Assembly: GCA_009838915.1 (NCBI GenBank)
Contig: VXQT01000034.1
Coordinates: 99,896-163,895, forward strand
Direction of reading: 5' to 3'
Length of the DNA: 64,000 nucleotides
Origin: Chloroflexota bacterium
Lineage (GTDB): Bacteria; Chloroflexota; Dehalococcoidia; Bin125
Part shown: positions 10,090-25,194 of the stretch, piece after piece
Position numbering within the stretch: the first letter of the stretch is position 1
How the letters are laid out: each line of letters begins with the position of its first letter
Notes under the pieces: generated by a model
The model's database searches: none
The model's input: only the letters and a program-made list of their open reading frames with translations
Told to the model about the DNA's origin: nothing
Position numbers and translations under genes: made by a program

Positions 10090-10123
10090 TCCCTCTCCCT
10101 CTGGGAGAGGGCTGGGGTGAGGG
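10090..10123 (+). repeat. Dispersed hairpin repeat, family A (copy 1)
   Basis: A perfect 9-bp stem (10091-10099 with 10103-10111, loop TCT) is followed by GGCTGGGGTGAGGG. The same element recurs at 32144, 43258 and 43318. It lies between the D-aminoacylase and enolase genes. Confidence 0.85.
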
Positions 10124-10149
10124 ACCGACTACTAACCAGGAGCGCCTTG

Positions 10150-11268
10150 ATGCCGACGATTACCGCTGTCCGCTCGCGGATGCTGCGCATCCCGCTCGAC
10201 CATCCGACTTCGTTCTCCAACCGCACCGTCTATCACCGCGACCATCCGGTGGTCGAAGTCGAGTGCGACGACGGACATGTCGGGATCGGCTTCTGCTACG
10301 CGGGCAACTCCAACGGACAGCTCGTGACCTCGGCGGTTGACCAGCTCTTCGCGCCGCTGCTGCTGGGGCAGGATCCGTTTCGCGTCGAGGGTCTGTGGGC
10401 GGCGATGTACCAGGAGTCGCTGCTGCACGGCCGCGCCGGGTCGACGATGCGGGCGCTCTCGGCGCTCGACATCGCGCTCTGGGATCACAACGCGAAGGCG
10501 GCCGGGCTGCCCCTGTACCGGCTGCTCGGCGGCTACTACGAGGACACCGTGCCTGCCTACGCCTCAGGCGGCTACTACCTCGACGGCAAAGGCCACGAGG
10601 GTCTGCAACAGGAGCTGCTGGGTTATGTCGAGATGGGCTTCGACGCGGTCAAGATCAAGGTCGGTCGGCTATCGGTGCGCGAGGAGGCCTCGCGGATGCA
10701 GGCGGCGCGCGAGGCGGTCGGACCCGATGTGCACATCATGCTCGACGCCAACAACGCCTGGTCGAATCTCGAAGATGCGCTGCGCTACATGGCGGCCTAC
10801 GAGCCATCCAGCCCGTACTGGATCGAGGAGCCGTTCTCGCCCGACGCGATCGGGCTGCACGCGAAGCTGGCCCAGCGCACCGGCGTGCCGGTGGCGACCG
10901 GCGAGATCGAGGTCGGACGCTGGCGCTTCAAGGAGCTGATGGACCAGGACGCCGCGATGATCCTGCAGCCCGACGCCGCCGTGCTGGGCGGCGTGACCGA
11001 GTTCCGACGGATCGCCAATACGGCCGCCTCCTACGGCGTCTCAATCTGCCCGCACTGGTTCCACGACCTGCACCGGCATCTGGTCGCCTCGTCGCCCAAC
11101 GCCACCTATGTCGAGTTCTTCCCCGACGACCAGGTCCACAACTTCCGCAACATCATTGATCGGCAGACAGAGGTCCGCGACGGCCGCCTGGTGCTGCCCG
11201 ACACGCCGGGTCTGGGCTTCGAGTTCCTGCCCGAGGCGCTGGAGCGGTACGCAGTCAGCTCGCAATGA
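10150..11268 (+). CDS. Enolase-superfamily enzyme (mandelate racemase/muconate lactonizing type)
   Basis: The protein has 372 residues, with the enolase N-terminal capping domain and C-terminal barrel. The lysine pair is K168-I-K170, the metal ligands are Asp199, Glu226 and Glu252, and a catalytic-face histidine lies in CPHWFHD (about 300-306). These place it in the MR subgroup, which abstracts a proton next to a carboxylate; sugar-acid dehydration is common, but specificity cannot be read off. I take the ATG at 10150 (GGAG upstream) rather than 10117, which lies in a repeat. Its last 14 bases overlap the convergent MaoC gene. Confidence 0.93.
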   Translation: MPTITAVRSRMLRIPLDHPTSFSNRTVYHRDHPVVEVECDDGHVGIGFCYAGNSNGQLVTSAVDQLFAPLLLGQDPFRVEGLWAAMYQESLLHGRAGSTMRALSALDIALWDHNAKAAGLPLYRLLGGYYEDTVPAYASGGYYLDGKGHEGLQQELLGYVEMGFDAVKIKVGRLSVREEASRMQAAREAVGPDVHIMLDANNAWSNLEDALRYMAAYEPSSPYWIEEPFSPDAIGLHAKLAQRTGVPVATGEIEVGRWRFKELMDQDAAMILQPDAAVLGGVTEFRRIANTAASYGVSICPHWFHDLHRHLVASSPNATYVEFFPDDQVHNFRNIIDRQTEVRDGRLVLPDTPGLGFEFLPEALERYAVSSQ

Positions 11269-12816: not shown

Positions 12817-13239
12817 TTAGCTGTCGTACGAGATCAGTTCGACCAGGTTGCCGTCGGGATCGCGGGTGTAGACGCTGACACCCTCGGCGGTGCCGGCGGC
12901 GCGGCCGCCGACGCGGCTCGCGGGGCCTTCGATCACTTCCGCGCCCGCCGCCTCGATCGCTGCCGAGGCGGATTCTGGTGTCCCCTCCCAGACGAAGCAG
13001 AAGTCGCCGCAGCCGGGCTCGGCGGTCGGGCCGCGCAGCTCGAACCTCGGGTTCTGCCAGAGCTTCGGGTCGTGCACGTTGATCTTCTGGTCGCCGCAAG
13101 CAATGGCGAAGATCGGGAAGTCGCCTGAGCGCCACTCCTCCTCATGCACAATCTCGAGTCCGAGCGCGCGGTAGAAGCGCAACAACGCCTCCGGGTCGCC
13201 CGCCGGAATCGCCACATGGTCCATTCCAGTTACTGCCAC
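12817..13239 (-). CDS. VOC-family protein (glyoxalase/dioxygenase fold)
   Basis: The protein has 140 residues with paired beta-alpha-beta-beta-beta modules. The first metal position is His8 in DHVAI, and the last is the Glu of GNLVELI near the C-terminus. The segment VYTRDPDGNLVEL is classic for the family. VOC proteins include glyoxalases, isomerases, extradiol dioxygenases and resistance proteins, so the reaction is not assigned. The GTG start at 13239 has GAGGGG upstream; an ATG two bases earlier is out of frame. A TAGTCT hexamer lies 45 bases before the start. Confidence 0.88.
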   Translation of the reverse strand: MAVTGMDHVAIPAGDPEALLRFYRALGLEIVHEEEWRSGDFPIFAIACGDQKINVHDPKLWQNPRFELRGPTAEPGCGDFCFVWEGTPESASAAIEAAGAEVIEGPASRVGGRAAGTAEGVSVYTRDPDGNLVELISYDS

Positions 13240-13284
13240 ATCTGCCCCTCTTCGCCGCTGAGTTCAACCTGCTCCACTGAGCGA

Positions 13285-13310
13285 AGACTAACCGCTCGCG
13301 CTGTTATCCT
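13285..13310. promoter_or_regulatory. Divergent -10-like pair between VOC and dehalogenase genes
   Basis: TAGTCT on minus (13285-13290) is 45 bases before the VOC start; TATCCT on plus (13305-13310) is 52 bases before the dehalogenase start. Confidence 0.45.
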
Positions 13311-13362
13311 TGCCTCGCTCGCAACTGAATTCCCAACCACTCCTGCAATCACTGGAGCGACC

Positions 13363-14253
13363 ATGCCCGACATTTCCGCCGACGACCCGTTTCCGCGCAA
13401 GCGTCTGACCATCGGCGAGACGACGATGGCGTACGTCGACGAGGGCAATCCCGACGGCGATCCGATTGTCTTCCTGCACGGCAACCCAACTTCGTCCTAC
13501 CTGTGGCGCAACATCATGCCGCACCTGTTCGACTCGGCGCGCTGTCTGGCGCCCGACCTGATCGGCATGGGCGTCTCGGGATCGTCGCCTTCAGGCTCGT
13601 ACCGCTTCGTCGACCACGCCGGATGGCTGGATGCCTGGATCGAGGGAATGGACCTCGGCAACCGGATCACGTTCGTGATCCACGACTGGGGCTCGGCGCT
13701 GGGATTCCACTGGACCAACCGACACCGCGATCGGGTCAAGGGGTTGGTCTACATGGAAGCGATCGTCAGGCCGGTCACTTGGGACGAGTGGCCCGAAGCG
13801 GCCGCCCGCATCTTCCAGGGCATGCGCTCGGAGGCGGGCGAGGACATGGTGCTGGAGAAGAACGTCTTCGTCGAGCGCATCCTGCCGGGCAGCGTCCTGC
13901 GCGGTCTCACGGAGGAGGAGATGGAAGTCTACCGCCTGCCTTACCGCGAAGCGGGCGAGTCTCGGCGTCCGACGCTCACCTGGCCGCGCGAGATTCCGAT
14001 CAGTGGCGAGCCGCCGGATGTCGTCGAAATCGTGCAGAGCTATGCCGACTTCCTCGCTTCGGACGAGTCTGCACAGGTCGCGAAGTTGTTCATCAACGCC
14101 GAGCCGGGAGCGATCCTGCAAGGCGCGCAGCGTGAGTTCTGCCGCGCCTGGCCCAACCAGACCGAGGTGACCATACCCGGCAACCACTTCATACAAGAGG
14201 ACTCGCCGCATGAGATCGGCGCAGCCATCCGCGACTGGTACGCCGGGCTGTAG
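13363..14253 (+). CDS. Haloalkane dehalogenase-like alpha/beta hydrolase (HLD-II type)
   Basis: The protein has 296 residues. All the HLD-II catalytic positions can be identified: nucleophile Asp108 and halide-binding Trp109 in IHDWG, halide-binding Asn41 in HGNPTSSYLW, catalytic acid Glu132 in MEAIVRP, and catalytic His275 in GNHFIQEDSP. The family cleaves carbon-halogen bonds by hydrolysis. An aspartate in place of serine with Asn and Trp strongly favours a dehalogenase over an esterase. The ATG has TGGAG seven bases upstream and TATCCT 52 bases before it. The first of two DinB genes follows 15 bp downstream. Confidence 0.92.
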   Translation: MPDISADDPFPRKRLTIGETTMAYVDEGNPDGDPIVFLHGNPTSSYLWRNIMPHLFDSARCLAPDLIGMGVSGSSPSGSYRFVDHAGWLDAWIEGMDLGNRITFVIHDWGSALGFHWTNRHRDRVKGLVYMEAIVRPVTWDEWPEAAARIFQGMRSEAGEDMVLEKNVFVERILPGSVLRGLTEEEMEVYRLPYREAGESRRPTLTWPREIPISGEPPDVVEIVQSYADFLASDESAQVAKLFINAEPGAILQGAQREFCRAWPNQTEVTIPGNHFIQEDSPHEIGAAIRDWYAGL

Positions 14254-14268
14254 CGAGGATGCGAAGCG

Positions 14269-14745
14269 ATGCTCGAAATCACCAACGCTGAAGAGGCGCA
14301 CGCCGAGCTGGACCAGGCTCGGGAAGAGTTCCGAGAGCTCGTGCTGGGTCTGTCCAGCGAGGAATGGAACCGCAACAGCGATAACGCCGGCTGGACCAAT
14401 ACGCAGCTCTGCTGGCACCTCGCGCTCACCGCGAGCGGCGGCACGTTGAGGGTGTCACGGCTGCGCCAGAACAAGGACTTTGAGCCGCCCGCTCCGTTGA
14501 TGGCGGTCCTCAATCCCCTCAGCATGTGGATGGTGCGCATCCGCTCACGAGGCGCGACGCCCGACTCGGTGCTGGAGTTGTTCGACGAGCGCCTGGCAAT
14601 GACGCGCGCACTGATCGATACAGTCGCCGACGACGAGTGGAACAATGGCGGCGTGTTCCTGGGCGAACAAACGACCGTCGGTAACTCGTTCGGATTCCTG
14701 CGCCAGCACGTCAGCGACCACGCGGCGGAAATGCGTCGCAACTAA
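14269..14745 (+). CDS. DinB-family protein, first of a tandem pair
   Basis: The protein has 158 residues forming the four-helix DinB/DUF664 bundle. His in CWHLA (about 46-50) and the C-terminal HVSDHAAEM fit the family's three-histidine metal site. Members are thiol-dependent transferases or isomerases, or have unknown roles. It is closely related to the next gene along the whole length: EEFRELVLGLS, NAGWTN.QLCWH and MVRIRSRGATP are nearly identical in both. It follows the dehalogenase by 15 bp and may share its transcript. Confidence 0.85.
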   Translation: MLEITNAEEAHAELDQAREEFRELVLGLSSEEWNRNSDNAGWTNTQLCWHLALTASGGTLRVSRLRQNKDFEPPAPLMAVLNPLSMWMVRIRSRGATPDSVLELFDERLAMTRALIDTVADDEWNNGGVFLGEQTTVGNSFGFLRQHVSDHAAEMRRN

Positions 14746-14827: not shown

Positions 14828-15304
14828 ATGTCAGAGATCACCAACGCCGACGAAGCACGCGGCGCATTGGAACAGGCGCGTGAGGAGTTCCGCGAACTCG
14901 TGCTCGGACTGTCCGAGGACGAGTGGAATCGCGACAGCAACAACGCGGGCTGGACGAACGGTCAGCTCTGCTGGCACATCGCGTTCGGCGCGGGAGCCGG
15001 CGGGCAGACAATCTCCAGATTGCGCCGGAACAAGAGCATGAACCCGCCCGGACCGATCATGGCCGTGTTCAACCTCGCCAGCCTGTGGATGGTCAGGATT
15101 CGCTCACGGGGAGCCACGCCCGAGTCTGTACTCGCATTCTTCGACGAAGGCCACGGAAAGTCGGTGAAGCTCACCGACACTGTGGGCGACGATGAATGGG
15201 GCAATAGCGGCGTGGTGTTGGGCCAACCGATGACGGTCGGAAGTGCGTTCGAATTCATGGGCGAGCACATGCGCGAACACGCCGCCGAAATGCGCAGAGA
15301 CTGA
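14828..15304 (+). CDS. DinB-family protein, second of a tandem pair
   Basis: Also 158 residues, with no apparent gaps against the preceding protein, so a tandem duplication is clear. The putative metal histidines are conserved (CWHIA near residue 49, HMREHAAEM near the end). The two copies differ most at residues about 50-80 and 110-140, which could set different substrates. The 82-bp gap upstream holds no obvious second promoter. A thioesterase follows 15 bp downstream. Confidence 0.85.
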   Translation: MSEITNADEARGALEQAREEFRELVLGLSEDEWNRDSNNAGWTNGQLCWHIAFGAGAGGQTISRLRRNKSMNPPGPIMAVFNLASLWMVRIRSRGATPESVLAFFDEGHGKSVKLTDTVGDDEWGNSGVVLGQPMTVGSAFEFMGEHMREHAAEMRRD

Positions 15305-15319
15305 GCCGTCTGCACTGCG

Positions 15320-15748
15320 ATGCCGCTCAGTTCCGACGAGATCTTCGAGCGCTATCCGCCGCTCCGCGACATGGAGGCGGTGGCGCTGTTCCAGGAACTG
15401 GGCTACCGCTTCACCGACGCCGGCGACGGCTGGTGCGAGATCACGCTGAACGCATCCTCCAAGACGCACAACCTGTACGGCATCGTGCATGGCGGCGTCT
15501 GGCTGTTGGTCGCCGACTCGGCAATGGGCGGCGCGCTGGGGACGATCCAGGCCGAGGGCGAGCGAGTGATCACCGCGCAGTCGGAGTTCCGCTGGCTGCG
15601 CGGTCTGGACGGCGACGTGATTCGCGCGCGTGCCGAGGTGATCCGGCGGGGCCGGACGCTGAGCCACTGTTCGGTCGATCTCTACGACGAGCAGGGCCGT
15701 CACATCGGCCATGGCAACGGCACCTATGTGATGCTTCCACCCGAGTAG
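15320..15748 (+). CDS. PaaI-type hot-dog thioesterase
   Basis: The protein has 142 residues. The hot-dog signature NLYGIVHGGVWLLVADSAMG (51-70) matches PaaI/4HBT enzymes, where the HGG loop and the Asp of ADSAMG bind and attack the acyl-CoA thioester. The C-terminal strand HIGHGNGTYVM is typical. It probably releases CoA from an aromatic or short acyl-CoA made by neighbouring catabolic enzymes; the substrate is unknown. No clear ribosome site is seen, and the gene lies close behind the DinB pair. Confidence 0.88.
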   Translation: MPLSSDEIFERYPPLRDMEAVALFQELGYRFTDAGDGWCEITLNASSKTHNLYGIVHGGVWLLVADSAMGGALGTIQAEGERVITAQSEFRWLRGLDGDVIRARAEVIRRGRTLSHCSVDLYDEQGRHIGHGNGTYVMLPPE

Positions 15749-15846: not shown

Positions 15847-16596
15847 ATGGCCGGACGACTCGAGGGCAAGACCGCATTGATCACGGGCGGAGCTCGAGGA
15901 CAGGGGGCGGCCGAGGCGGTGCTGTTTGCAGAAGAAGGCGCCACGGTCGTGATCACGGACGTGCTCGACTCGGACGGCGAAGCGACCGCCGCCACCAGCG
16001 GGAGCATTCGCTACCTGCATCACGACGTGACCAATGAGGACGAGTGGATCGCGGTGGTTCAGGACGTGCTCGAGGACCACGGCAAGATCGACGCGTTCAT
16101 CAACAACGCCGGCATCTACCGGCAATCGCCGATCGCCACGCTCTCCGTTGAGGAGTACATGGAGGTGATCAACATTAACCAGGTCGGGGTATTCCTGGGG
16201 CTCAAGCACGTGGGACCGGTGATGTGCGAGGCAGGCTCGGGGTCGATCATCAACATCTCGTCGATCGCCGGCATGCGCGGCGGGCCAGGGTCACTGGCCT
16301 ACTCGGCCTCGAAGTGGGCGGTGCGCGGGATGACCAAGGTGGCGATGGGGGAGTTCGCACCATCCGGCGTGCGTGTGAACTCGATCCATCCGGGTTTGAT
16401 CGAGACGCCAATGCTTCACCAGCTGCCCGCGATTGAGCAGGGTCTCACCGACCAGATAGTTCGCAGGATTCCATACGGCCGTATCGCCGAGGCGGTTGAA
16501 GTGGCGCGCCTGGCGCTGTTCCTCGCCTCGGACGACTCTGAATACATGAACGGCACCGAGTTCATCATCGACGGCGGCATGATCCAGGGCATCTGA
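15847..16596 (+). CDS. Short-chain dehydrogenase/reductase (SDR)
   Basis: The protein has 249 residues of classical SDR: cofactor loop TGGARGQG (14-21), NNAG in INNAGIY, catalytic Ser in NISSIAG, and YSASK with catalytic Tyr and Lys. The last strands (GTEFIIDGGMI) are complete. An acidic residue after the second strand (TDVLDSD) favours NAD(H). The substrate is an unknown alcohol or ketone. TACCCT lies 34 bases before the ATG. It is followed 21 bp later by the cyclase gene and may start a three-gene operon. Confidence 0.93.
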   Translation: MAGRLEGKTALITGGARGQGAAEAVLFAEEGATVVITDVLDSDGEATAATSGSIRYLHHDVTNEDEWIAVVQDVLEDHGKIDAFINNAGIYRQSPIATLSVEEYMEVININQVGVFLGLKHVGPVMCEAGSGSIINISSIAGMRGGPGSLAYSASKWAVRGMTKVAMGEFAPSGVRVNSIHPGLIETPMLHQLPAIEQGLTDQIVRRIPYGRIAEAVEVARLALFLASDDSEYMNGTEFIIDGGMIQGI

Positions 16597-16617: not shown

Positions 16618-18027
16618 ATGAGTCCGCCTCCCGTCCAGTACACGCGCACCGAGGACGACATCGACATCGCCTGGGTCGAGCGCGGCGTCGGCAAGCCATT
16701 GGTGGTGTCAACCGGACCAATGATCCCGCTCAGCACGGGCTGGGAACCGGGCGGGATCTGGGAGCGGCTGTCGCACTCGTTCCGGGTGATTCGATTCGAT
16801 CCGCGAGGTTGTGGACTTTCGGAGCGCGACGGGGTGTTCGGATCGTTCCATGACGAGGCGATGGATCTGGCAGCGGTCGTCAACGAAGTAGCCGAGCCCC
16901 GCGTCGCGCTGATGGGGCACTACATCGGCACGCCGGCCGCGGTGATCGCGATGCTGAACGAGCCGGAGCGTTACACGCACCTGATGCTGCACCTGCCGAT
17001 CCCGATGGGCGGCGAACGATCAGGAATGTCCCAACAGAGCGAAATCAACGATCTCATCGACGGCACGGTGGAGAACCTGTTGCGGCTGGGATGGCAGCAT
17101 CACGACGAAGCGGCGCGGCGGGCGTTGTTGACGATGATCGCGCCCACGGCCGACGAACACACTCTGCGCGATCTGTCGCAGACGATGCATCACTATCCAT
17201 CGATGAATCGGCTGTTCGGCCTGGTGCGGGAGATGCGCGATCTTGATCTGCGGGATCAGTTGCGTGACGTCGAGATACCGACGCTGATCTCCATCCCATA
17301 TGAAGGAGAAGGCACCGAGGCGGGGTACAGTTCGACCTCGCGCGAATGGGCGCGGATCATTCGGGGCGCGCGTCTGGTCGTTGCGCAGGACGACACGCCG
17401 GTACTGGTTGACGGCGCGCCGATCATCACCCAGATCGCCGAAGCGCTTGAAGAGTTCATCGGGGTCGAGCAGTCGATCGAAACGGCCGGCCAGGCGACCC
17501 GCACCATCCTGTTTACGGACATCGAAGGCTCGACATCGCTGGTTGACCGGCTCGGCGACACCCGAGCGAGATCGATCACCAGGGAAATCGAGCAACTGAC
17601 ACTGAGCGCCATCAGGGAGCATGACGGCGTACAGGTCAAGACGATGGGCGATGGCGTACTCGCCTGGTTCGGCGCCGCATCGGCGGCGGTCGAGACGGCG
17701 GTGCAGGTCCAGCACGGGCTCGCCAATCATGAGCGCTACAGCGATGTCTTTGTGCGAATCGGCATCAGCGCGGGCGAACCGATCGCCGAGTCGGATGACC
17801 TGTATGGCACGACCGTGAACCAGGCTGCGCGAATCATGTCGATCGCGCGCGGCGGAGAGATCCTGGTGTCGGACCTGCTGCGTGGTCTGCTCCAGGGTCG
17901 TGGATTCAGCTTTGAGGATCAGGGCCGGCACGAGTTGCGCGGATTCCGTGAGTCGGTGCAGCTCTTTAAGGTCGACTGGCGCGCGGAGGCGTCCACTCCA
18001 GCCGCGACGGAAGGGTCGGAGACATGA
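16618..18027 (+). CDS. Degenerate alpha/beta-hydrolase fused to a class III adenylate cyclase
   Basis: The protein has 469 residues. Residues 1-285 form an alpha/beta-hydrolase domain (RFDPRGCGLSE, LMGHYIGTP). The nucleophile elbow reads G-H-Y102-I-G with tyrosine in place of serine, and the usual C-terminal His position is also missing, so this half is probably a sensor and not an enzyme. Residues 296-455 are a cyclase domain with metal aspartates Asp301 (FTDIEGS) and Asp345 (KTMGDGV), purine-selecting Lys341 and Asp394, and transition-state Arg405 (VNQAARI). The Lys/Asp pair points to ATP, giving cAMP. Its stop overlaps the start of the methyltransferase gene (ATGA). Confidence 0.93.
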   Translation: MSPPPVQYTRTEDDIDIAWVERGVGKPLVVSTGPMIPLSTGWEPGGIWERLSHSFRVIRFDPRGCGLSERDGVFGSFHDEAMDLAAVVNEVAEPRVALMGHYIGTPAAVIAMLNEPERYTHLMLHLPIPMGGERSGMSQQSEINDLIDGTVENLLRLGWQHHDEAARRALLTMIAPTADEHTLRDLSQTMHHYPSMNRLFGLVREMRDLDLRDQLRDVEIPTLISIPYEGEGTEAGYSSTSREWARIIRGARLVVAQDDTPVLVDGAPIITQIAEALEEFIGVEQSIETAGQATRTILFTDIEGSTSLVDRLGDTRARSITREIEQLTLSAIREHDGVQVKTMGDGVLAWFGAASAAVETAVQVQHGLANHERYSDVFVRIGISAGEPIAESDDLYGTTVNQAARIMSIARGGEILVSDLLRGLLQGRGFSFEDQGRHELRGFRESVQLFKVDWRAEASTPAATEGSET

Positions 18028-19013
18028 TCGAAATGACGAAGCGTGAACGAGTCCGAGCCGCAATCTTGGGCGAACCGGTCGACCGAGCACCCGCATCCCT
18101 CTGGGGGCACGATTTCCTGCGTGAATGGAGCAACGACGAACTGGTCGGCGCGACCTGCGAACAGTACGAGACCTACGACTGGGACTTCATCAAGATCAAT
18201 CCACGCTGGTCGATGTTCCCGGAGGCCTGGGGCGCGGTCTACTCGCCGCCCTCGGATCAGTCCAATCCAACGATGGTCAGTTCGGCGCTGGAAGAACTCG
18301 ACGAGCTGCATGACGTGGTCTCGGTCCACGCCGAGCGCGGCGTCCTGGGCGAGCACATCGAGTCAACACGATTGGTAGTCGAACGCACCCGAGGAGAGGT
18401 CGATGTCGTACAGACCGTGTTCTCCCCGATGGCGACGTTGGGCTTGATGTTCGGCCATCCGAGAGCGTTCAAGCAGGCCGCGCGCGAGGCGCCGGCGGCC
18501 GTGCATGCGGCGATCGCGCGGATCACCGACACGATCATCCACTACAGCCGAGCCAACATGAACGCAGGTGCATCGGGCGTGTTCTACGCGCCGCTGCAAT
18601 GGGCCAGCTACGCCAACTCCACGGCCGAGTTCTACCGGGAGTTCGGCCGGCCGTATGACATGCAGGTGCTCGACGCAATCCGAGACGCAGAATTCAACAT
18701 CCTCCACGTCTGCTTCACCAACAACATGCTGGCCGACGTGCTCGACTATCCCGTCCACGCCTTCAACTGGGATGACCGCGACGAAACCAACTCCGGTCTC
18801 GCCGATATCTGGTCCCAGACCGACAAGGCAGTGATGGGCGGCGTCAGCCGGAGCGGATTGGGAGAGCTGAACGCTGACGAGATTCGGGCGCAGGCATCGC
18901 AAGCGGCAGGCGTAGCCAACACCCGTGTGTTCGTCACCGGAGGCTGCTCGATTCCCCCGCACACGCCGCACGAAAATCGTGCGGCAGTGGCAGCCGGAGC
19001 TCGGGGGAACTGA
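18024..19013 (+). CDS. UroD/MtaA-family cobalamin-dependent methyltransferase-like protein
   Basis: The protein has 329 residues with the uroporphyrinogen decarboxylase barrel (TKRERVRAAILGEPVDRAP at the start, FHVC-type strand, GGCS near the end). Heme-pathway UroD would have an N-terminal RQAGR loop, which is absent. Instead there is His228-x-Cys230 and, 78 residues on, Cys308, matching the zinc-binding HxC...C pattern of MtaA/MtbA/CmuA methyltransferases. I infer a methyl transfer or O-demethylation role. No corrinoid protein gene lies beside it. The start overlaps the cyclase stop by four bases, so translation is probably coupled. Confidence 0.85.
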   Translation: MIEMTKRERVRAAILGEPVDRAPASLWGHDFLREWSNDELVGATCEQYETYDWDFIKINPRWSMFPEAWGAVYSPPSDQSNPTMVSSALEELDELHDVVSVHAERGVLGEHIESTRLVVERTRGEVDVVQTVFSPMATLGLMFGHPRAFKQAAREAPAAVHAAIARITDTIIHYSRANMNAGASGVFYAPLQWASYANSTAEFYREFGRPYDMQVLDAIRDAEFNILHVCFTNNMLADVLDYPVHAFNWDDRDETNSGLADIWSQTDKAVMGGVSRSGLGELNADEIRAQASQAAGVANTRVFVTGGCSIPPHTPHENRAAVAAGARGN

Positions 19014-19030: not shown

Positions 19031-20263
19031 CTAGCGTCGATTCGCCGTAAAGCCAGGGCCGCGGCCCTGTTCCCAGACCATCTTGCGCGCGACATCCTCG
19101 TCGAAGTCGATGCCCCAGCCGGGCCTGGTCGGCAGTTCCAGATGACCGTCGACGATCTCCAGCGGACCGCCGCCGAGGTCGTCCTTCCAGGGCACGTCGT
19201 CGATGTCGATCTCCATGATCCGCACATTCGGCACCGTCGCGCAGAGGTGCAGCGCGTGCATCGTGGCCAGGTGCGAGTAGTAGTTGTGCGGCGCGCAGTT
19301 GAGCTCGTAGCTCTCGGCCAGCAGGGCCACGTCGCGCGAGCGGGCGAAGCCCTGCCAGGGCACGTCGATCATCACGTTGTCCATCGAGCGGTGCTCGAAG
19401 TAGGGTCGGTAGTCGCGGATTGTGTAGAGGTTCTCGCCCGACGTGATCGGCACGGTGGTCTGACGGCGGACGTCAGCCAGCGCATCGGGTTCGTACATGT
19501 CGATTTCGACCCACATCATCTCGAGCTGTTCGAGCGACTGGCAGATCTGACGCGCGACCAGTGGGGTGCAGTTGAAGTTGAGGTCGAGCGCGATCTGCAC
19601 GTCGGGTCCCGCGCCCTGCTTGAGTGCGCCGATGTACTCGGGAATGTGGCGCAGGAGTGATGGGACGGCGTTGCGGTCGATATTGCTCGTACCTCCCCAA
19701 CCCGGTCCGTAGACGCCGGTCGGGTCGCCGGGGAAGACGATGTTCGTCTTGAGCGCATGGAATCCCTTCCCACGGACTTCCTCGCCCAGCGCTACCACGT
19801 CGTCCATCGACCGCAGCGGCGGCGCGCCGACGACCCACTCGGAGCCGTTGTCCCAGAGGATCTGGTCGTAGCTTCGCGCTCGCGATGAACCGCAGTGGGA
19901 CCAGTAGATCATCTGGCGCTCGCGCGTCGGACCGCCGAAGAGCGCGTAGACGGGCACGCCCAGGGCCTTGCCCTTGATGTCCCAGAGCGCCAGCTCGACG
20001 CCGGCGATCGCTTTGGCCGCGATTCCGCCGGGCGACTGCCGCGCCAGCCGGTACATGTCCCAGTAGCGGGCCTCGACCGCCAGCGGGTCCGCGCCGATCA
20101 GGATCGGTTCCATGTCGGCGATCGTGCCGACGATGCCGTACGGGTTGCGCCCGTCGGACATCTCGCCGTAGCCGGTGAGCCCGTCGGAGGTGCGCACGGC
20201 GACGAACTGCCAGGGCCGCCAGCCGGCGTCAACGACGAAGGTCTCGATCTCGGTAATCTTCAT
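19031..20263 (-). CDS. Enolase-superfamily enzyme (mandelate racemase/D-galactonate dehydratase type)
   Basis: The protein has 410 residues with metal ligands Asp227 (LDLN), Glu253 (WVEID) and Glu277 (SGEN), a lysine in LKTN and a catalytic histidine region APHNYYSH (about 324-331). The layout fits sugar-acid dehydratases of the MR/GalD group, but the residues do not fix the substrate. I chose the ATG at 20263, with GGAA six bases upstream, over a TTG at 20275. A TAGCCT hexamer lies 32 bases before this start. The gene is convergent with the methyltransferase and divergent from the amidase. Confidence 0.92.
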   Translation of the reverse strand: MKITEIETFVVDAGWRPWQFVAVRTSDGLTGYGEMSDGRNPYGIVGTIADMEPILIGADPLAVEARYWDMYRLARQSPGGIAAKAIAGVELALWDIKGKALGVPVYALFGGPTRERQMIYWSHCGSSRARSYDQILWDNGSEWVVGAPPLRSMDDVVALGEEVRGKGFHALKTNIVFPGDPTGVYGPGWGGTSNIDRNAVPSLLRHIPEYIGALKQGAGPDVQIALDLNFNCTPLVARQICQSLEQLEMMWVEIDMYEPDALADVRRQTTVPITSGENLYTIRDYRPYFEHRSMDNVMIDVPWQGFARSRDVALLAESYELNCAPHNYYSHLATMHALHLCATVPNVRIMEIDIDDVPWKDDLGGGPLEIVDGHLELPTRPGWGIDFDEDVARKMVWEQGRGPGFTANRR

Positions 20264-20295
20264 GGTCTGTTCCAACCCTTCCGCGCCTCAGGCGC

Positions 20296-20415: not shown

Positions 20416-21810
20416 ATGCCTGATCCACTCTGGAGACGCACCGCCGTCGAACTGGCCGGATTGATTCGAGATCGCGAGGTCTCCAGCCGTGAAGTGGTTG
20501 AAGCTCACCTCGACCGGATCGTCGAGGTCAACGGCCAGGTCAACGCAGTCACACTCGTGCTCGAAGACACCGCGCTGGCAGCCGCCGACGCCGCCGACGG
20601 CGGCGAGAACCTGGGCCCATTGCACGGCGTTCCCTTCACGATCAAAGAGAACATCGACTGCGTCGGCTCGCCAACCACTCAGGGCGTACCCGCGCTCGCC
20701 GACGCCATGCCGCCGAGCGACGCGCCCGTCGTGCAGCGAATGAAACGCGCCGGCGCGATTCCCCTCGCGCGCACCAATCTCCCCGAGCTGGGCGGCCGCC
20801 TCGATACCGACAACCTACTCCGCGGCCGCACCTTCAATCCCTGGAATCCAGCCCTGACTCCCGGCGGCTCGAGCGGCGGCGAGGCCGCAGCACTGGCCAC
20901 CGGCATGTCACCGATTGGTCTGGGCAACGACATCCTCGGCTCGCTGCGTAACCCTGCGTACTGCTGCGGCATCACCTCACTCAAGCCGTCGGCGGGCCGT
21001 ATCCCCTGCGTGCTCCCGATGGGCGTCGACGCCGGGATGGCGGTGCAGGCGATGCTGGTCGAAGGCCCCATGGCGCGCTCAGTCGCCGACCTGCGCCTCG
21101 GCCTCTCAATTCTTGCCGGCCGCGACGTTCGCGATCCGCGCTCGGTCGACGCCCCGCTCGAAGGCCCCGAACCGACGCAGCGCCGGGCCGCGCTGGTCAC
21201 CGAGATCCCCGGCTTTGATCTGCCTGCCGTGACGGTCGCCGAGATCCGCCGCGCGGGCGAGGTACTCGCCGCCGACGGTTGGCGCGTGGAAGAAGTCCAG
21301 CCGCCCGAGCTGGACCGCGTCAATGAGATCTGGAACTACGTCATCGTCGCCGACCAGGACGAGGAATCGCTCCGGGAGCAGGAGGAGCTGATCACACCGC
21401 AGCTCGCCACCGTCTTCCGACAGATCGGTGAACGAATCGCCTCCGCACCGCTGTCCAATGCCGCCATCCACGCCGAGCGATCGCGTCTCAGCCGGGTCTG
21501 GTCGGACTTCTTCGGCGCATACCCGGTCGCCATCGGACCCACCTGGACCTGCCTGCCGTGGCCGATTGACTCGGACCTCGATCCCGAGACCGGCATGGAC
21601 CTGACGCTCGGTACCGCGCACTTCATCAGTCCGGGCAACGTGCTGGGACTGCCCGCCGTTGCGCTGGCCACCGGCGTTGCCGACGGTCTCCCGACCGGCG
21701 TGCAGGTCTACGCCGACCGTTGGCGCGAGGATCTCTGCCTCGCCGCGGCCGAACAGATCGAGGCGGCAAGCCGGACGCCAACGCCGATCGATCCCGTGCC
21801 GCCGGCCTGA
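20416..21810 (+). CDS. Amidase-signature family amidase
   Basis: The protein has 464 residues. The Ser-cisSer-Lys triad is visible: Lys in FTIKENID (about 77-84), cis-Ser in TPGGSSGGEAA and nucleophile Ser in GNDILGSLRNPAYCCG. The last carries an extra variation (GSLR for the more usual GSIR). Members hydrolyse amides, including indoleacetamide, nicotinamide and many xenobiotics; the substrate is not readable. The ATG has GAGGAG upstream and TAGCCT 27 bases before it. Formylglycine-generating enzyme follows after 80 bp. Confidence 0.93.
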   Translation: MPDPLWRRTAVELAGLIRDREVSSREVVEAHLDRIVEVNGQVNAVTLVLEDTALAAADAADGGENLGPLHGVPFTIKENIDCVGSPTTQGVPALADAMPPSDAPVVQRMKRAGAIPLARTNLPELGGRLDTDNLLRGRTFNPWNPALTPGGSSGGEAAALATGMSPIGLGNDILGSLRNPAYCCGITSLKPSAGRIPCVLPMGVDAGMAVQAMLVEGPMARSVADLRLGLSILAGRDVRDPRSVDAPLEGPEPTQRRAALVTEIPGFDLPAVTVAEIRRAGEVLAADGWRVEEVQPPELDRVNEIWNYVIVADQDEESLREQEELITPQLATVFRQIGERIASAPLSNAAIHAERSRLSRVWSDFFGAYPVAIGPTWTCLPWPIDSDLDPETGMDLTLGTAHFISPGNVLGLPAVALATGVADGLPTGVQVYADRWREDLCLAAAEQIEAASRTPTPIDPVPPA

Positions 21811-21890
21811 GGCGCCGGCCGTTGAAGCATCCGGCAACGCCTTCACACTGTTCACGACCAGGCATTGAAACGACCTTGACTGGCAACGCA

Positions 21891-22868
21891 ATGACCGATT
21901 GCTGCGCAGCATCGAGAAGCTCTGCTCTCCCCCCGTTCGGGACAGGTACCGGCGGCAACGAAGGGCGCTGGCAAGTGCCGCCCCGCCGTCCCAGGGGACC
22001 TGCGCGAGCGACGGCGAGGACAGAACATGTCACGGCCAAGATCCCGGACGGCAGATTTGTCATGGGCGCGGTTGACGAGCTCTCCTATCCCGGAGACGGC
22101 GAGGGTCCGCTGCGAGAGGTGGAACTCAGCGGGTTCGAGATCGACGCCTGCGCGGTGACGAACGAGCAGTTCGCTGCGTTTGTCGAAGCGACGGGCTTTC
22201 TGACCGAGTCGGAGCGAACGGGTTGGTCATTCGTCTTTGCCGGACTGCTACCGGACGACTTCCCGCCGACCCGCGGGGCCGCGGACGCGCCCTGGTGGCG
22301 TCAGGCCGAGGGCGCGTCCTGGCAGAGTCCGGAAGGACCAGGCAGCGACATCGATGCGCGGCTCGATCATCCGGTCGTGCATGTCAGCTGGAACGACGCC
22401 CTGGCGTATGCGGAGTGGGCTGGGAAGTCACTGCCGAGTGAAGCTCAATGGGAGCGGGCGGCTCGCGGCGAGCTCGATTCGCAGCCCTATCCCTGGGGCG
22501 ACGAACTGACGCCCGGGGGCGAGCACCGGATGAACGTCTGGCAGGGCGTGTTCCCGAACGCGAACACGTTCGACGACGGTTGGTACGGGACCTGTCCGGT
22601 CGACAGCTACGAACCCAACGGATTCGGCCTGTTCAACGCGACAGGCAACGTCTGGGAGTGGTGTCACGACTGGTTCGACGTGTTCCACGACCCATCGCCA
22701 CCACGAGATCCGACGGGTCCGCCGGACGGCGATCTCAAGGTGCTCAAGGGCGGCAGCTTCCTCTGTCACGAGAGCTACTGCCTGCGCTATCGTACCGCGG
22801 CGCGTCAGGGGCTGACTCCGGACAGCGCCACGAGCAATACCGGCTTCCGCTGCGTGCGCGCAACCTGA
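21891..22868 (+). CDS. Formylglycine-generating enzyme (sulfatase-maturing)
   Basis: The protein has 325 residues. It oxidises a sulfatase cysteine to formylglycine. The FGE-sulfatase domain is complete: GRFVMG, HPVVHVSWNDA, LPSEAQWERAARG, NVWEWCHDW and the active-site segment KGGSFLCHESYCLRYR, with Cys292 and Cys297 at the two copper-binding cysteine positions. These cysteines separate true FGE from the many look-alikes. It lies 52 bp before a cysteine-type sulfatase, its likely client. I use the ATG at 21891, which begins a Cys-rich leader (MTDCCAASR) seen in related proteins, although no Shine-Dalgarno is evident. Confidence 0.95.
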   Translation: MTDCCAASRSSALPPFGTGTGGNEGRWQVPPRRPRGPARATARTEHVTAKIPDGRFVMGAVDELSYPGDGEGPLREVELSGFEIDACAVTNEQFAAFVEATGFLTESERTGWSFVFAGLLPDDFPPTRGAADAPWWRQAEGASWQSPEGPGSDIDARLDHPVVHVSWNDALAYAEWAGKSLPSEAQWERAARGELDSQPYPWGDELTPGGEHRMNVWQGVFPNANTFDDGWYGTCPVDSYEPNGFGLFNATGNVWEWCHDWFDVFHDPSPPRDPTGPPDGDLKVLKGGSFLCHESYCLRYRTAARQGLTPDSATSNTGFRCVRAT

Positions 22869-22920
22869 CGGTAGCCTTCGTTCAATACTTGGATACACCG
22901 ATGGCGAGCGGAGGCTGCAG

Positions 22921-25194
22921 ATGACCACCGACGAACAATTCCAGGGCAAGATTGGCCGCACGTTTCGCGAATCGGAGCCGTGGTGGCCGCCGATGACCAC
23001 CGCGCCGCAGGATCGGCCCAACGTGCTGATCGTGCTGTTCGACGACCTCGGGTTTGCGCACCTCAACTGCTACGGCGGCCTGACGCCGACACCGAACATC
23101 GACCGCCTGGCCCAGAACGGGCTGCGCTACACCAACTTCCACGTCACGCCGCTCTGTTCGCCGACGCGGGCGGCATTGCTCACGGGGCGCAATCACCACA
23201 CGGTCGGGATGCGCTCGGTGACCAACTTCAACAACGGCTACCCCAACACGCGCGGACGGATCACTCAACACGCGGCGACGATGGCCGAGCTGCTGCGCGA
23301 CGAGCGCTACGCCACATTTGCGCTGGGCAAGTGGCATCTCTGCCCGGGCGAAGAACTGAGCCAGGCCGGTCCCTACCACGACTGGCCGCTGCAGCGCGGA
23401 TTCGACCGCTACTACGGCTTCCTGCCCGGCGAGACCGACCAGTTCTACCCCGAGCTGACACGCGACAACACGCTGATCGAGCCGCCGAGCTCACCCGAGG
23501 ACGGCTACCACCTGACCGAGGACCTGGTTGACCAGGCGCAGCAGTTCCTGCGCGACCAGCATTCGATCTATCCCGATCAGCCGTTTTTCATGTACTTCGC
23601 GCTGGGCGCCACACACGCGCCGCACCAGGCGCCGCCGGAGTACATCGAGCGCCAGCGCGGACGCTGGGACATCGGCTGGGACGCCGTCCGCGAGCAAGTC
23701 TTTGCGCGCCAGCTCGAACTGGGCATCGTGCCCGAGGGCACGCAGCTCGCGCCGCGCAACCGCGGCGTCGAGGCCTGGGACGAGATGGAACCGAACACGC
23801 AGCGCTTCGCGGTTGCGCTGCAGGAGGCCTTCGCCGGCTTCCTCGAGCACACCGACACGCAGCTCGGACGTCTCTTCGACCACCTCGAGGAGTCGGGACA
23901 GATGGACAACACGCTGATCCTGCTGATGGCCGACAACGGCGCGTCGCAGGAGGGCGGTCCGACCGGCGTCTCCGACGAGCCGCGCCTGTTCGGTCCCCGT
24001 GACGACCTGGAAGAAGTGCAGTCGCGTCTGCATGAGATCGGCGGGCCGCGCTCGGCCTCGAACTATCCCTGGGGCTGGGCGCAGGCCGGCAACACGCCGC
24101 TGCGCTGGTACAAGCAGAACACGCACGGCGGGGGCGTCCGCGTGCCGCTGATCGCTCATTGGCCGCAGGGCATCCGCGAGCGCGGCGGCATCCGAGGCCA
24201 GTTCCACCACGTCTCCGATGTGCTACCAACAGTGTTGGACACGCTCGGTACCGAAGCCCCCGACACCTACCAGGGCCACGGCCAGTTGCCGGTCGCCGGC
24301 ACCAGCTTCCAGTACACCTTCAACGACCCCGATGCGGCCACCACCAAGGACACGCAGTACTTCGAGATGCTGGGTCACCGCGGGCTCTGGGACCACGGTT
24401 GGAAGGCCGTCACCTGGCACCGGATGGGCAACGAGTGGTCCGACGACGAATGGGAGCTCTACCACGTCGACGAGGACTTCTCCGAGACCAACAACCTCGC
24501 CGAGGAGGAGCCCGAGCGCCTGCGCGCCCTGATCGACCGCTGGTGGATCGAGGCGGGCAAGCACGGCGTGCTGCCGCTCGACGACCGCACCCTGGAGATC
24601 AACCAGCCCTCGCAGGCGCCTGGCAGCCCGCACACCGACTTCCGCTACCGCTACACGCCGCCGATCACCCACTTGCAGCGCGACGTCTCCCCTGCGCTCG
24701 ATGTCGGTAGTTGGACGGTTACCGCGCAATGCGCCCGCGACTCGACCGGGCAGCAGGGCGTGATCTTCAATCGCGGCTCGATCCATAGCGGCTGCACGCT
24801 CTACATCCAGGACAACCGGCTGCACTTCGACTACCACGCCTACGACGACTGGTTCCGCTTCCGCAGCGAGGGGCAGGTCCCCGATGGCGAAGTCGAGATT
24901 GGCGTCTCATTGCAGAGCGACGGTCCGCGCGGACCGGCGACGCTGACGCTCACGATCAACGGCGGCACGGTCGGCTCCGGTGAGATCACCACGCTCCAGC
25001 GCCAGAACCTGTTCGGACACGGCGAGTTCGACATCGGCGCCGACCGCCGCTCGCCCGTCGGCGACCGCTATGAGCCGCCGTTCGAGTTCGAGGGTGAGAT
25101 CCGGCTGGTGGACGTGGTCGTCACCCCATTCGACGGCCCCGCCGCCGAGTGGGTGGCCCGGGAACGCGCGCGTCGCGAGTTGGCGAGCCAATAG
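22921..25194 (+). CDS. Type I arylsulfatase with C-terminal beta-rich domain
   Basis: The protein has 757 residues. The sulfatase domain (about 30-560) has metal motif LFDDLG, the maturation motif C79-S-P-T-R followed by AALLTGR, GKWHL, HAPHQ and MADNGAS. Cys79 would be converted to formylglycine by the FGE encoded just upstream. It resembles AtsA-type arylsulfatases. Residues about 575-757 form an added beta-rich domain (repeated strands such as GCTLYIQDNRLHFDY) that may bind the sulfated substrate. No signal peptide is visible, so the enzyme is probably cytoplasmic. The ATG has GGAGG upstream. Confidence 0.94.
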   Translation: MTTDEQFQGKIGRTFRESEPWWPPMTTAPQDRPNVLIVLFDDLGFAHLNCYGGLTPTPNIDRLAQNGLRYTNFHVTPLCSPTRAALLTGRNHHTVGMRSVTNFNNGYPNTRGRITQHAATMAELLRDERYATFALGKWHLCPGEELSQAGPYHDWPLQRGFDRYYGFLPGETDQFYPELTRDNTLIEPPSSPEDGYHLTEDLVDQAQQFLRDQHSIYPDQPFFMYFALGATHAPHQAPPEYIERQRGRWDIGWDAVREQVFARQLELGIVPEGTQLAPRNRGVEAWDEMEPNTQRFAVALQEAFAGFLEHTDTQLGRLFDHLEESGQMDNTLILLMADNGASQEGGPTGVSDEPRLFGPRDDLEEVQSRLHEIGGPRSASNYPWGWAQAGNTPLRWYKQNTHGGGVRVPLIAHWPQGIRERGGIRGQFHHVSDVLPTVLDTLGTEAPDTYQGHGQLPVAGTSFQYTFNDPDAATTKDTQYFEMLGHRGLWDHGWKAVTWHRMGNEWSDDEWELYHVDEDFSETNNLAEEEPERLRALIDRWWIEAGKHGVLPLDDRTLEINQPSQAPGSPHTDFRYRYTPPITHLQRDVSPALDVGSWTVTAQCARDSTGQQGVIFNRGSIHSGCTLYIQDNRLHFDYHAYDDWFRFRSEGQVPDGEVEIGVSLQSDGPRGPATLTLTINGGTVGSGEITTLQRQNLFGHGEFDIGADRRSPVGDRYEPPFEFEGEIRLVDVVVTPFDGPAAEWVARERARRELASQ

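Follow-up and report, generated by a model that had tools for sequence, protein, structure and literature searches.

Fusion of an alpha/beta-hydrolase domain with a nucleotide cyclase domain is in itself already known, both from LipJ/Rv1900c and from rhizobial proteins. LipJ is a bifunctional lipase/adenylate cyclase, and we take lipJ to be Rv1900c of Mycobacterium tuberculosis. Two further groups of proteins are relevant here. D14, KAI2 and RsbQ act through protein partners, and D14 and KAI2 retain the catalytic triad. The receptor-type adenylate cyclases of trypanosomes (GRESAG4), on the other side, are encoded by many genes and combine variable input with a conserved cyclase, being membrane proteins with an unrelated extracellular sensor. 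Alpha/beta-hydrolase receptors in plants are described in PMC3531792 and PMC10504578 and, according to a passage in PMC4886424, the transition-state Asn is replaced by His in Rv1900c.

Here, we analyzed a fusion of this type encoded in a window of 64,000 nucleotides, this being the whole stretch of DNA considered, from a genome assembly of 2.87 Mb in 38 contigs. Kin records of the fusion are labelled Dehalococcoidia, Chloroflexi or Chloroflexota. The gene and its parts are located in the window as follows.

16618..18027, + strand: hydrolase-cyclase fusion gene, an ORF of 469 aa
16618..17463, + strand: alpha/beta-hydrolase-like putative sensor domain, residues 1-282
16921..16923, + strand: codon 102, TAC = Tyr, at the nucleophile position in the alignment of fusions
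17464..17502, + strand: linker between the hydrolase and cyclase halves, residues 283-295
17503..17964, + strand: class III nucleotide cyclase domain, residues 296-449

The reading that we favor, and judge to be reasonably probable, is that this protein serves as a soluble one-component transducer, in which a dead hydrolase fold binds a small molecule and controls the fused cyclase. Such a sensor mechanism is what the architecture, the conservation pattern and the known alpha/beta-hydrolase receptors most likely point to. The hydrolase fold would no longer hydrolyse, a small molecule would bind in the former substrate pocket, and its binding would allosterically change how active the fused class III cyclase is, and hence the level of cAMP. 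The cAMP would then act via a regulator of the CRP type, and a gene for such a protein is present in the same genome.

For the cyclase half, the Guanylate_cyc model PF00211 matches residues 296-449 with 61.6 bits (E 9.7e-17), above its curated cut-off of 21.9, and by this Pfam measure the protein is a class III nucleotide cyclase. Ma1120 and the cyclase domain of lipJ (PDB 1ybt) are among the solved cyclases nearest to it. The preliminary description had stated that the catalytic residues of the cyclase are kept and, indeed, all six positions examined are intact: D301, K341, D345, D394, N401 and R405 are present in the window protein and in every ortholog row of the alignment. We take these to be the two metal-binding Asp residues, the Lys/Asp pair for adenine, and the Asn and Arg of the transition state. 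The enzyme probably makes the signal molecule cAMP. As to receptors, which the same description had proposed to look for, the genome yields two PF00027 matches, namely a CRP-type protein carrying PF00027 together with HTH_Crp_2 (L210:236-961(-)) and a second protein (L209) in which only the cNMP domain is present. In another genome of the class, G250, at least 23 fusions are found with one PF00027 match, in an assembly that is 78% complete. Many putative sensors would thus feed few known receptors.

The fold of the N-terminal half is less readily recognized. All alpha/beta-hydrolase Pfam models fall below cut-off when run against the single window sequence, the best being Hydrolase_4 with 22.9 bits vs 27. 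A profile built from the hydrolase domains of 34 family members, on the other hand, matches solved alpha/beta-hydrolases over profile positions 13-269 (best E 2.1e-36) and places the family elbow on the nucleophile elbow of, among others, Est1, and it is by this profile match to solved structures that the alpha/beta-hydrolase fold is assigned. The hydrolase-cyclase fusion proposed earlier therefore stands, the ORF being real. An AlphaFold2 model computed on 12 orthologs reached a mean pLDDT of only 35.5, so everything said below about the pocket rests on sequence landmarks.

The active site was aligned across 155 distinct fusions, after 51 of the 206 two-domain ORFs had been dropped as redundant or as having an incomplete hydrolase domain. 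Of these, 16 are distinct orthologs, 15 from genomes of the genus and one from another genus (G015); the 17 Tyr orthologs tallied in the alignment include the window protein under two names (q and L001). The replacement of the nucleophile by Tyr102 and the loss of the catalytic His, both claimed in the preliminary description, are seen directly in the alignment columns. Lacking a Ser (or Cys/Asp) nucleophile as well as the catalytic His, the window protein does not qualify as an alpha/beta-hydrolase enzyme. The same description had asked whether Tyr102 is fixed in homologues, and Tyr is indeed found in 16/16 distinct orthologs, with codon 102 being TAC in all 12 orthologs aligned at the codon level. 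In every ortholog row, the His column is occupied by P, S or W, and the residue in the acid column varies.

This fixed substitution needs to be considered together with the constraint on the domain that carries it. In the hydrolase half, 33 pairs with dS<1.2 from 12 orthologs give a median NG86 dN/dS of 0.081; the corresponding value in the cyclase half is 0.074 (20 pairs). Purifying selection acts strongly on the hydrolase half. As Tyr and its TAC codon are fixed and dN/dS is low, the dead site is common to the whole clade and lies in a domain under selection. One could nonetheless regard the protein as a decaying bifunctional lipase/cyclase of the LipJ type, in keeping with its LipJ architecture and with the intact triads found elsewhere in the family. 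Indeed, the preliminary description had held that relatives with an intact triad in the same fusion would mark this copy as a decayed enzyme, and such relatives do exist, as detailed below. They do not prove decay here, as within the clade the substitution has become fixed and is under constraint; moreover, no internal stop is present in 14 of the 16 ortholog matches, and the single TAG counted in each of the other two (L030 and L031) falls past residue 456, at the gene end. With Tyr102 fixed in every distinct ortholog and the low median dN/dS, the window hydrolase half is not decaying, and we consider this explanation very improbable.

A fixed Tyr might also be expected of a repurposed, Ser-independent enzyme fused to the cyclase, such as a lyase or a cofactor-free oxygenase-like alpha/beta-hydrolase, and alpha/beta-hydrolases with other chemistry do exist. 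Against this stand the absence of His from the His column of all ortholog rows, the lack of conservation in the acid column and the change of position 101, directly beside the Tyr, among His, Tyr and Ile. Such a repurposed enzyme is thus improbable, albeit less so than decay.

The variability of the former active site becomes apparent when the family as a whole is considered. Among 118 paralogs of the class, 18 different residues occupy the nucleophile position (S25 G19 L13 T9 F8 V8 Y6 I5 H4 E4 A4 Q3 R2 C2 M2 W2 N1 D1), and only 28 carry a usual nucleophile (Ser 25, Cys 2, Asp 1). An intact Ser-Asp/Glu-His triad is present in 16/118 class paralogs, in 7/13 fusions from other Chloroflexota classes and in 8/8 Proteobacterial fusions that passed the two-domain filter (12 places fetched). 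As the triad is still intact in these proteins, some of them may have retained hydrolase activity. In a FastTree tree, which has many weak branches and in which the eight Proteobacterial rows do not form one clade, the class fusions (the 118 paralogs and the orthologs) are set apart by a branch with support 100. The minimum number of changes on this tree, counted irrespective of direction, is at least 17 for Ser/non-Ser and at least 79 for residue identity at the nucleophile. As the triad is intact outside the class, loss within the class is the simpler reading. The cyclase, too, varies at one catalytic column, that of the transition-state Asn (q401), where most of the 118 class paralogs lack Asn (Gln in 41, Ile in 36, Asn in 35), a point that weighs against the favored reading although the window protein itself has Asn. 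Hydrolases without a cyclase that match the family hydrolase profile with 231-239 bits were also seen on plasmids of Rhizobium and Bosea (L207:1483-2541 and L208:1360-2436), each preceding a class I SAM methyltransferase gene.

In the paralogs, the active-site loops have a median entropy of 3.39 bits (22 positions) vs 2.31 for the 237 other positions (p 2e-6). It should be noted that the alignment is poor in the acid and His loops, so that entropy is inflated there; at positions 101-103, conserved columns on both sides make alignment error improbable. In relatives, the active site is hypervariable and the scaffold conserved; together with the invariant Tyr102 and the strong purifying selection, this supports the sensory role that the preliminary description had given to the pseudo-hydrolase. 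Neutral drift would, however, give the same pattern if the hydrolase domain were a ligand-free structural or dimerisation scaffold, the active site of which drifted as it was no longer needed. Two further observations fit such a scaffold. Paralog-variable pocket positions are not specially conserved within the genus, with 6/15 being invariant vs 152/244 of the others, and thus do not show the conservation that a fixed ligand pocket would be expected to leave. In addition, the cyclase gene diverges faster than several of its operon partners (52-53% identity vs 77-92% for the thioesterase, SDR and URO-D genes in L213-L215). Conversely, four residues of the active-site loops, namely Val30, Gly33, Tyr102 and Ile103, do not vary among 13 orthologs of the genus, and dN/dS of this half is about 0.08; nor would a mere scaffold require homogenised cyclases to carry so many old and divergent hydrolase halves, as described next. 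We therefore regard the ligand-free scaffold as unlikely. It comes first among the alternatives, ahead of the repurposed enzyme and then decay.

That repertoire is seen when paralogs of one genome are compared half by half. In one pair of G101, the cyclases differ by 2% of amino acids vs 74% for the hydrolases. When the cyclase difference is 5-25%, hydrolase differences have medians of 16-24% among orthologs and are about 61-62% among same-genome paralogs. Cyclase DNA identity exceeds 0.85 in 34 same-genome pairs (18 from G250, 12 from G163, two from G212 and one each from G094 and G101), the median hydrolase identity of which is 0.51. The change point in DNA identity lies at a median of q296 (IQR 291-296), corresponding to the linker or its end, as mapped to window residues from paralogs of other families. 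Past the stop codon, nine of the ten best pairs could be compared, with eight showing no homology (0.29-0.37) and one being homologous (0.78). The nearest neighbor comes from the same genome for 51/99 cyclases vs 13/99 hydrolases (9.4 by chance), and discordant cases number 40 vs 2 (p 4e-10), where cases within one genome are not independent. The effect is not uniform, as it is absent from G182 (0/7) and weak in G149 (1/6), G202 (1/8) and G069 (2/6 vs 1/6).

Stronger purifying selection does not by itself account for the alike cyclases, as seen at four-fold degenerate sites. There, the difference between orthologs is equal for the two halves (0.53 and 0.54), whereas same-genome paralogs differ by 0.64 in the hydrolase vs 0.49 in the cyclase, and differences below 0.2 occur in 7/547 same-genome pairs for the cyclase and in none for the hydrolase. 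Assembly chimeras were likewise considered; 12 of the 34 strong pairs come from the single-contig genome G163. The likeness within genomes would be explained most simply if the cyclase cassette underwent gene conversion or domain exchange, although such homogenisation may just reflect easier recombination of conserved DNA.

A match at E 1e-35 or better was found in 71/393 genomes of the class, with at most four candidates scored per genome. Lower bounds on copy number were obtained from fetched stretches of 14 genomes, which were chosen for strong matches and thus do not represent class averages: at least 23 distinct two-domain ORFs in G250, 13 in G283, 11 each in G212 and G101, 10 in G163, 9 in G202, 7 each in G182 and G094, 6 each in G069 and G149, 3 in G087 and 2 each in G282, G093 and G264. 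The copies are partly in tandem; on contig 27 of G250 (L084), for example, a 15-kb stretch contains seven two-domain ORFs, all on the same strand. In the genome of the window itself, a single fusion was found besides one other cyclase match.

Varied front halves on near-constant signalling halves suggest a repertoire of small-molecule sensors. We tentatively extend this, as possible rather than probable, to the proposal that parts of the Dehalococcoidia hold tens of soluble sensors per genome, in which dead alpha/beta-hydrolases with hypervariable pockets are linked, always at the same border, to a cyclase cassette kept alike in each genome by gene conversion or domain exchange, so that different small molecules would act on one cAMP pool. 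The window protein would be a specialised, operon-bound member, perhaps for halogenated compounds.

This last point comes from the neighboring genes, which are as follows.

13144..14253, + strand: haloalkane dehalogenase (NF002938, 408 bits, cut-off 241; HGNPT/HDWG/GNHF motifs)
14269..14745, + strand: DinB/MDMPI-like protein (conserved neighbor)
14828..15304, + strand: DinB/MDMPI-like protein (conserved neighbor)
15320..15748, + strand: hotdog (4HBT) thioesterase (conserved neighbor)
15847..16596, + strand: SDR dehydrogenase (conserved neighbor upstream of the cyclase gene)
18024..19013, + strand: URO-D family, distantly MtaA/CmuA-like methyltransferase-like gene (PF01208, 1.4e-28)

In all 14 loci with wide flanks (L006-L016 and L213-L215), the genes follow one another in the same way, from the haloalkane dehalogenase via DinB-like, thioesterase, SDR and cyclase genes to URO-D. 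The number of DinB-like genes matched varies, and in L008, L009 and L213 both DinB queries fall on one place. HGNPT, HDWG and GNHF, which we take to be haloalkane dehalogenase motifs, are intact in the first gene at 14/14 loci. The URO-D protein is distant from the MtaA/CmuA model (69 bits, cut-off 235) and carries H-x-C and GGC motifs that presumably resemble zinc ligands. The cyclase gene stops at 18027 and the URO-D gene begins at 18024, a 4-nt overlap that is also present in L006 and L007 by match coordinates; at the other loci, the matched ends lie a little apart or are not resolved. The link to a methyltransferase-like gene drawn in the preliminary description is therefore real as synteny, being kept at all 14 loci, yet the conserved operon is wider than that pair. 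The operon looks catabolic and is headed by an apparent haloalkane dehalogenase, for which reason the guess as to the ligand should widen beyond the methyltransferase. The ligand would belong to the operon pathway, possibly being a halogenated or methylated compound or product, as guessed from the operon. The idea that the putative sensor derives from the neighboring haloalkane dehalogenase found no support in pairwise BLASTP (best E 5.7). Two enolase-superfamily (MR_MLE) genes, at 10117-11268 and 19031-20275, stand one on each side of the operon. At 21720-25194 of the window, a gene with an FGE-sulfatase domain lies directly 5' of a sulfatase gene, an apparent sulfatase and maturation factor.

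In the open-licence literature, we found no report of a dead, hypervariable active site combined with a homogenised cyclase repertoire, and no paper treating SAR202 together with adenylate cyclase; the available portion of PMC6946804 mentions neither cyclase nor hydrolase. As to why a cyclase carries a hydrolase, a family with many nucleophile replacements on a constant cyclase argues for a ligand-binding sensor, and the same family offers many natural variants for testing this role. If true, bacteria living on diverse organic matter could sense many compounds via one second messenger, with a bacterial variable/constant architecture being maintained by recombination at the domain border.

Among known systems, LipJ shares the layout of the window protein. 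The LipJ model NF058673 matches residues 6-449 in the same domain order (model positions 10-446 of 449, E 3.6e-48), at a score far below its cut-off (164.4 bits vs 800). Unlike the bifunctional LipJ, the window protein has Tyr at the nucleophile position and has lost the His, and it carries Asn401 at the transition-state position, where the passage on Rv1900c reports His. Proteobacterial fusions from rhizobia, Ruegeria and others, annotated as adenylate/guanylate cyclase domain-containing protein, share the architecture but keep the Ser-Asp-His triad (8/8), which the window protein does not have. The GRESAG4 entries 1fx2 and 1fx4 of the PDB match the cyclase half only. D14, a KAI2-like protein and RsbQ are distant solved relatives of the hydrolase domain in which the fold serves signalling; in contrast to D14, KAI2 and RsbQ, the window protein would have the fused cyclase as its output, and its triad is lost.
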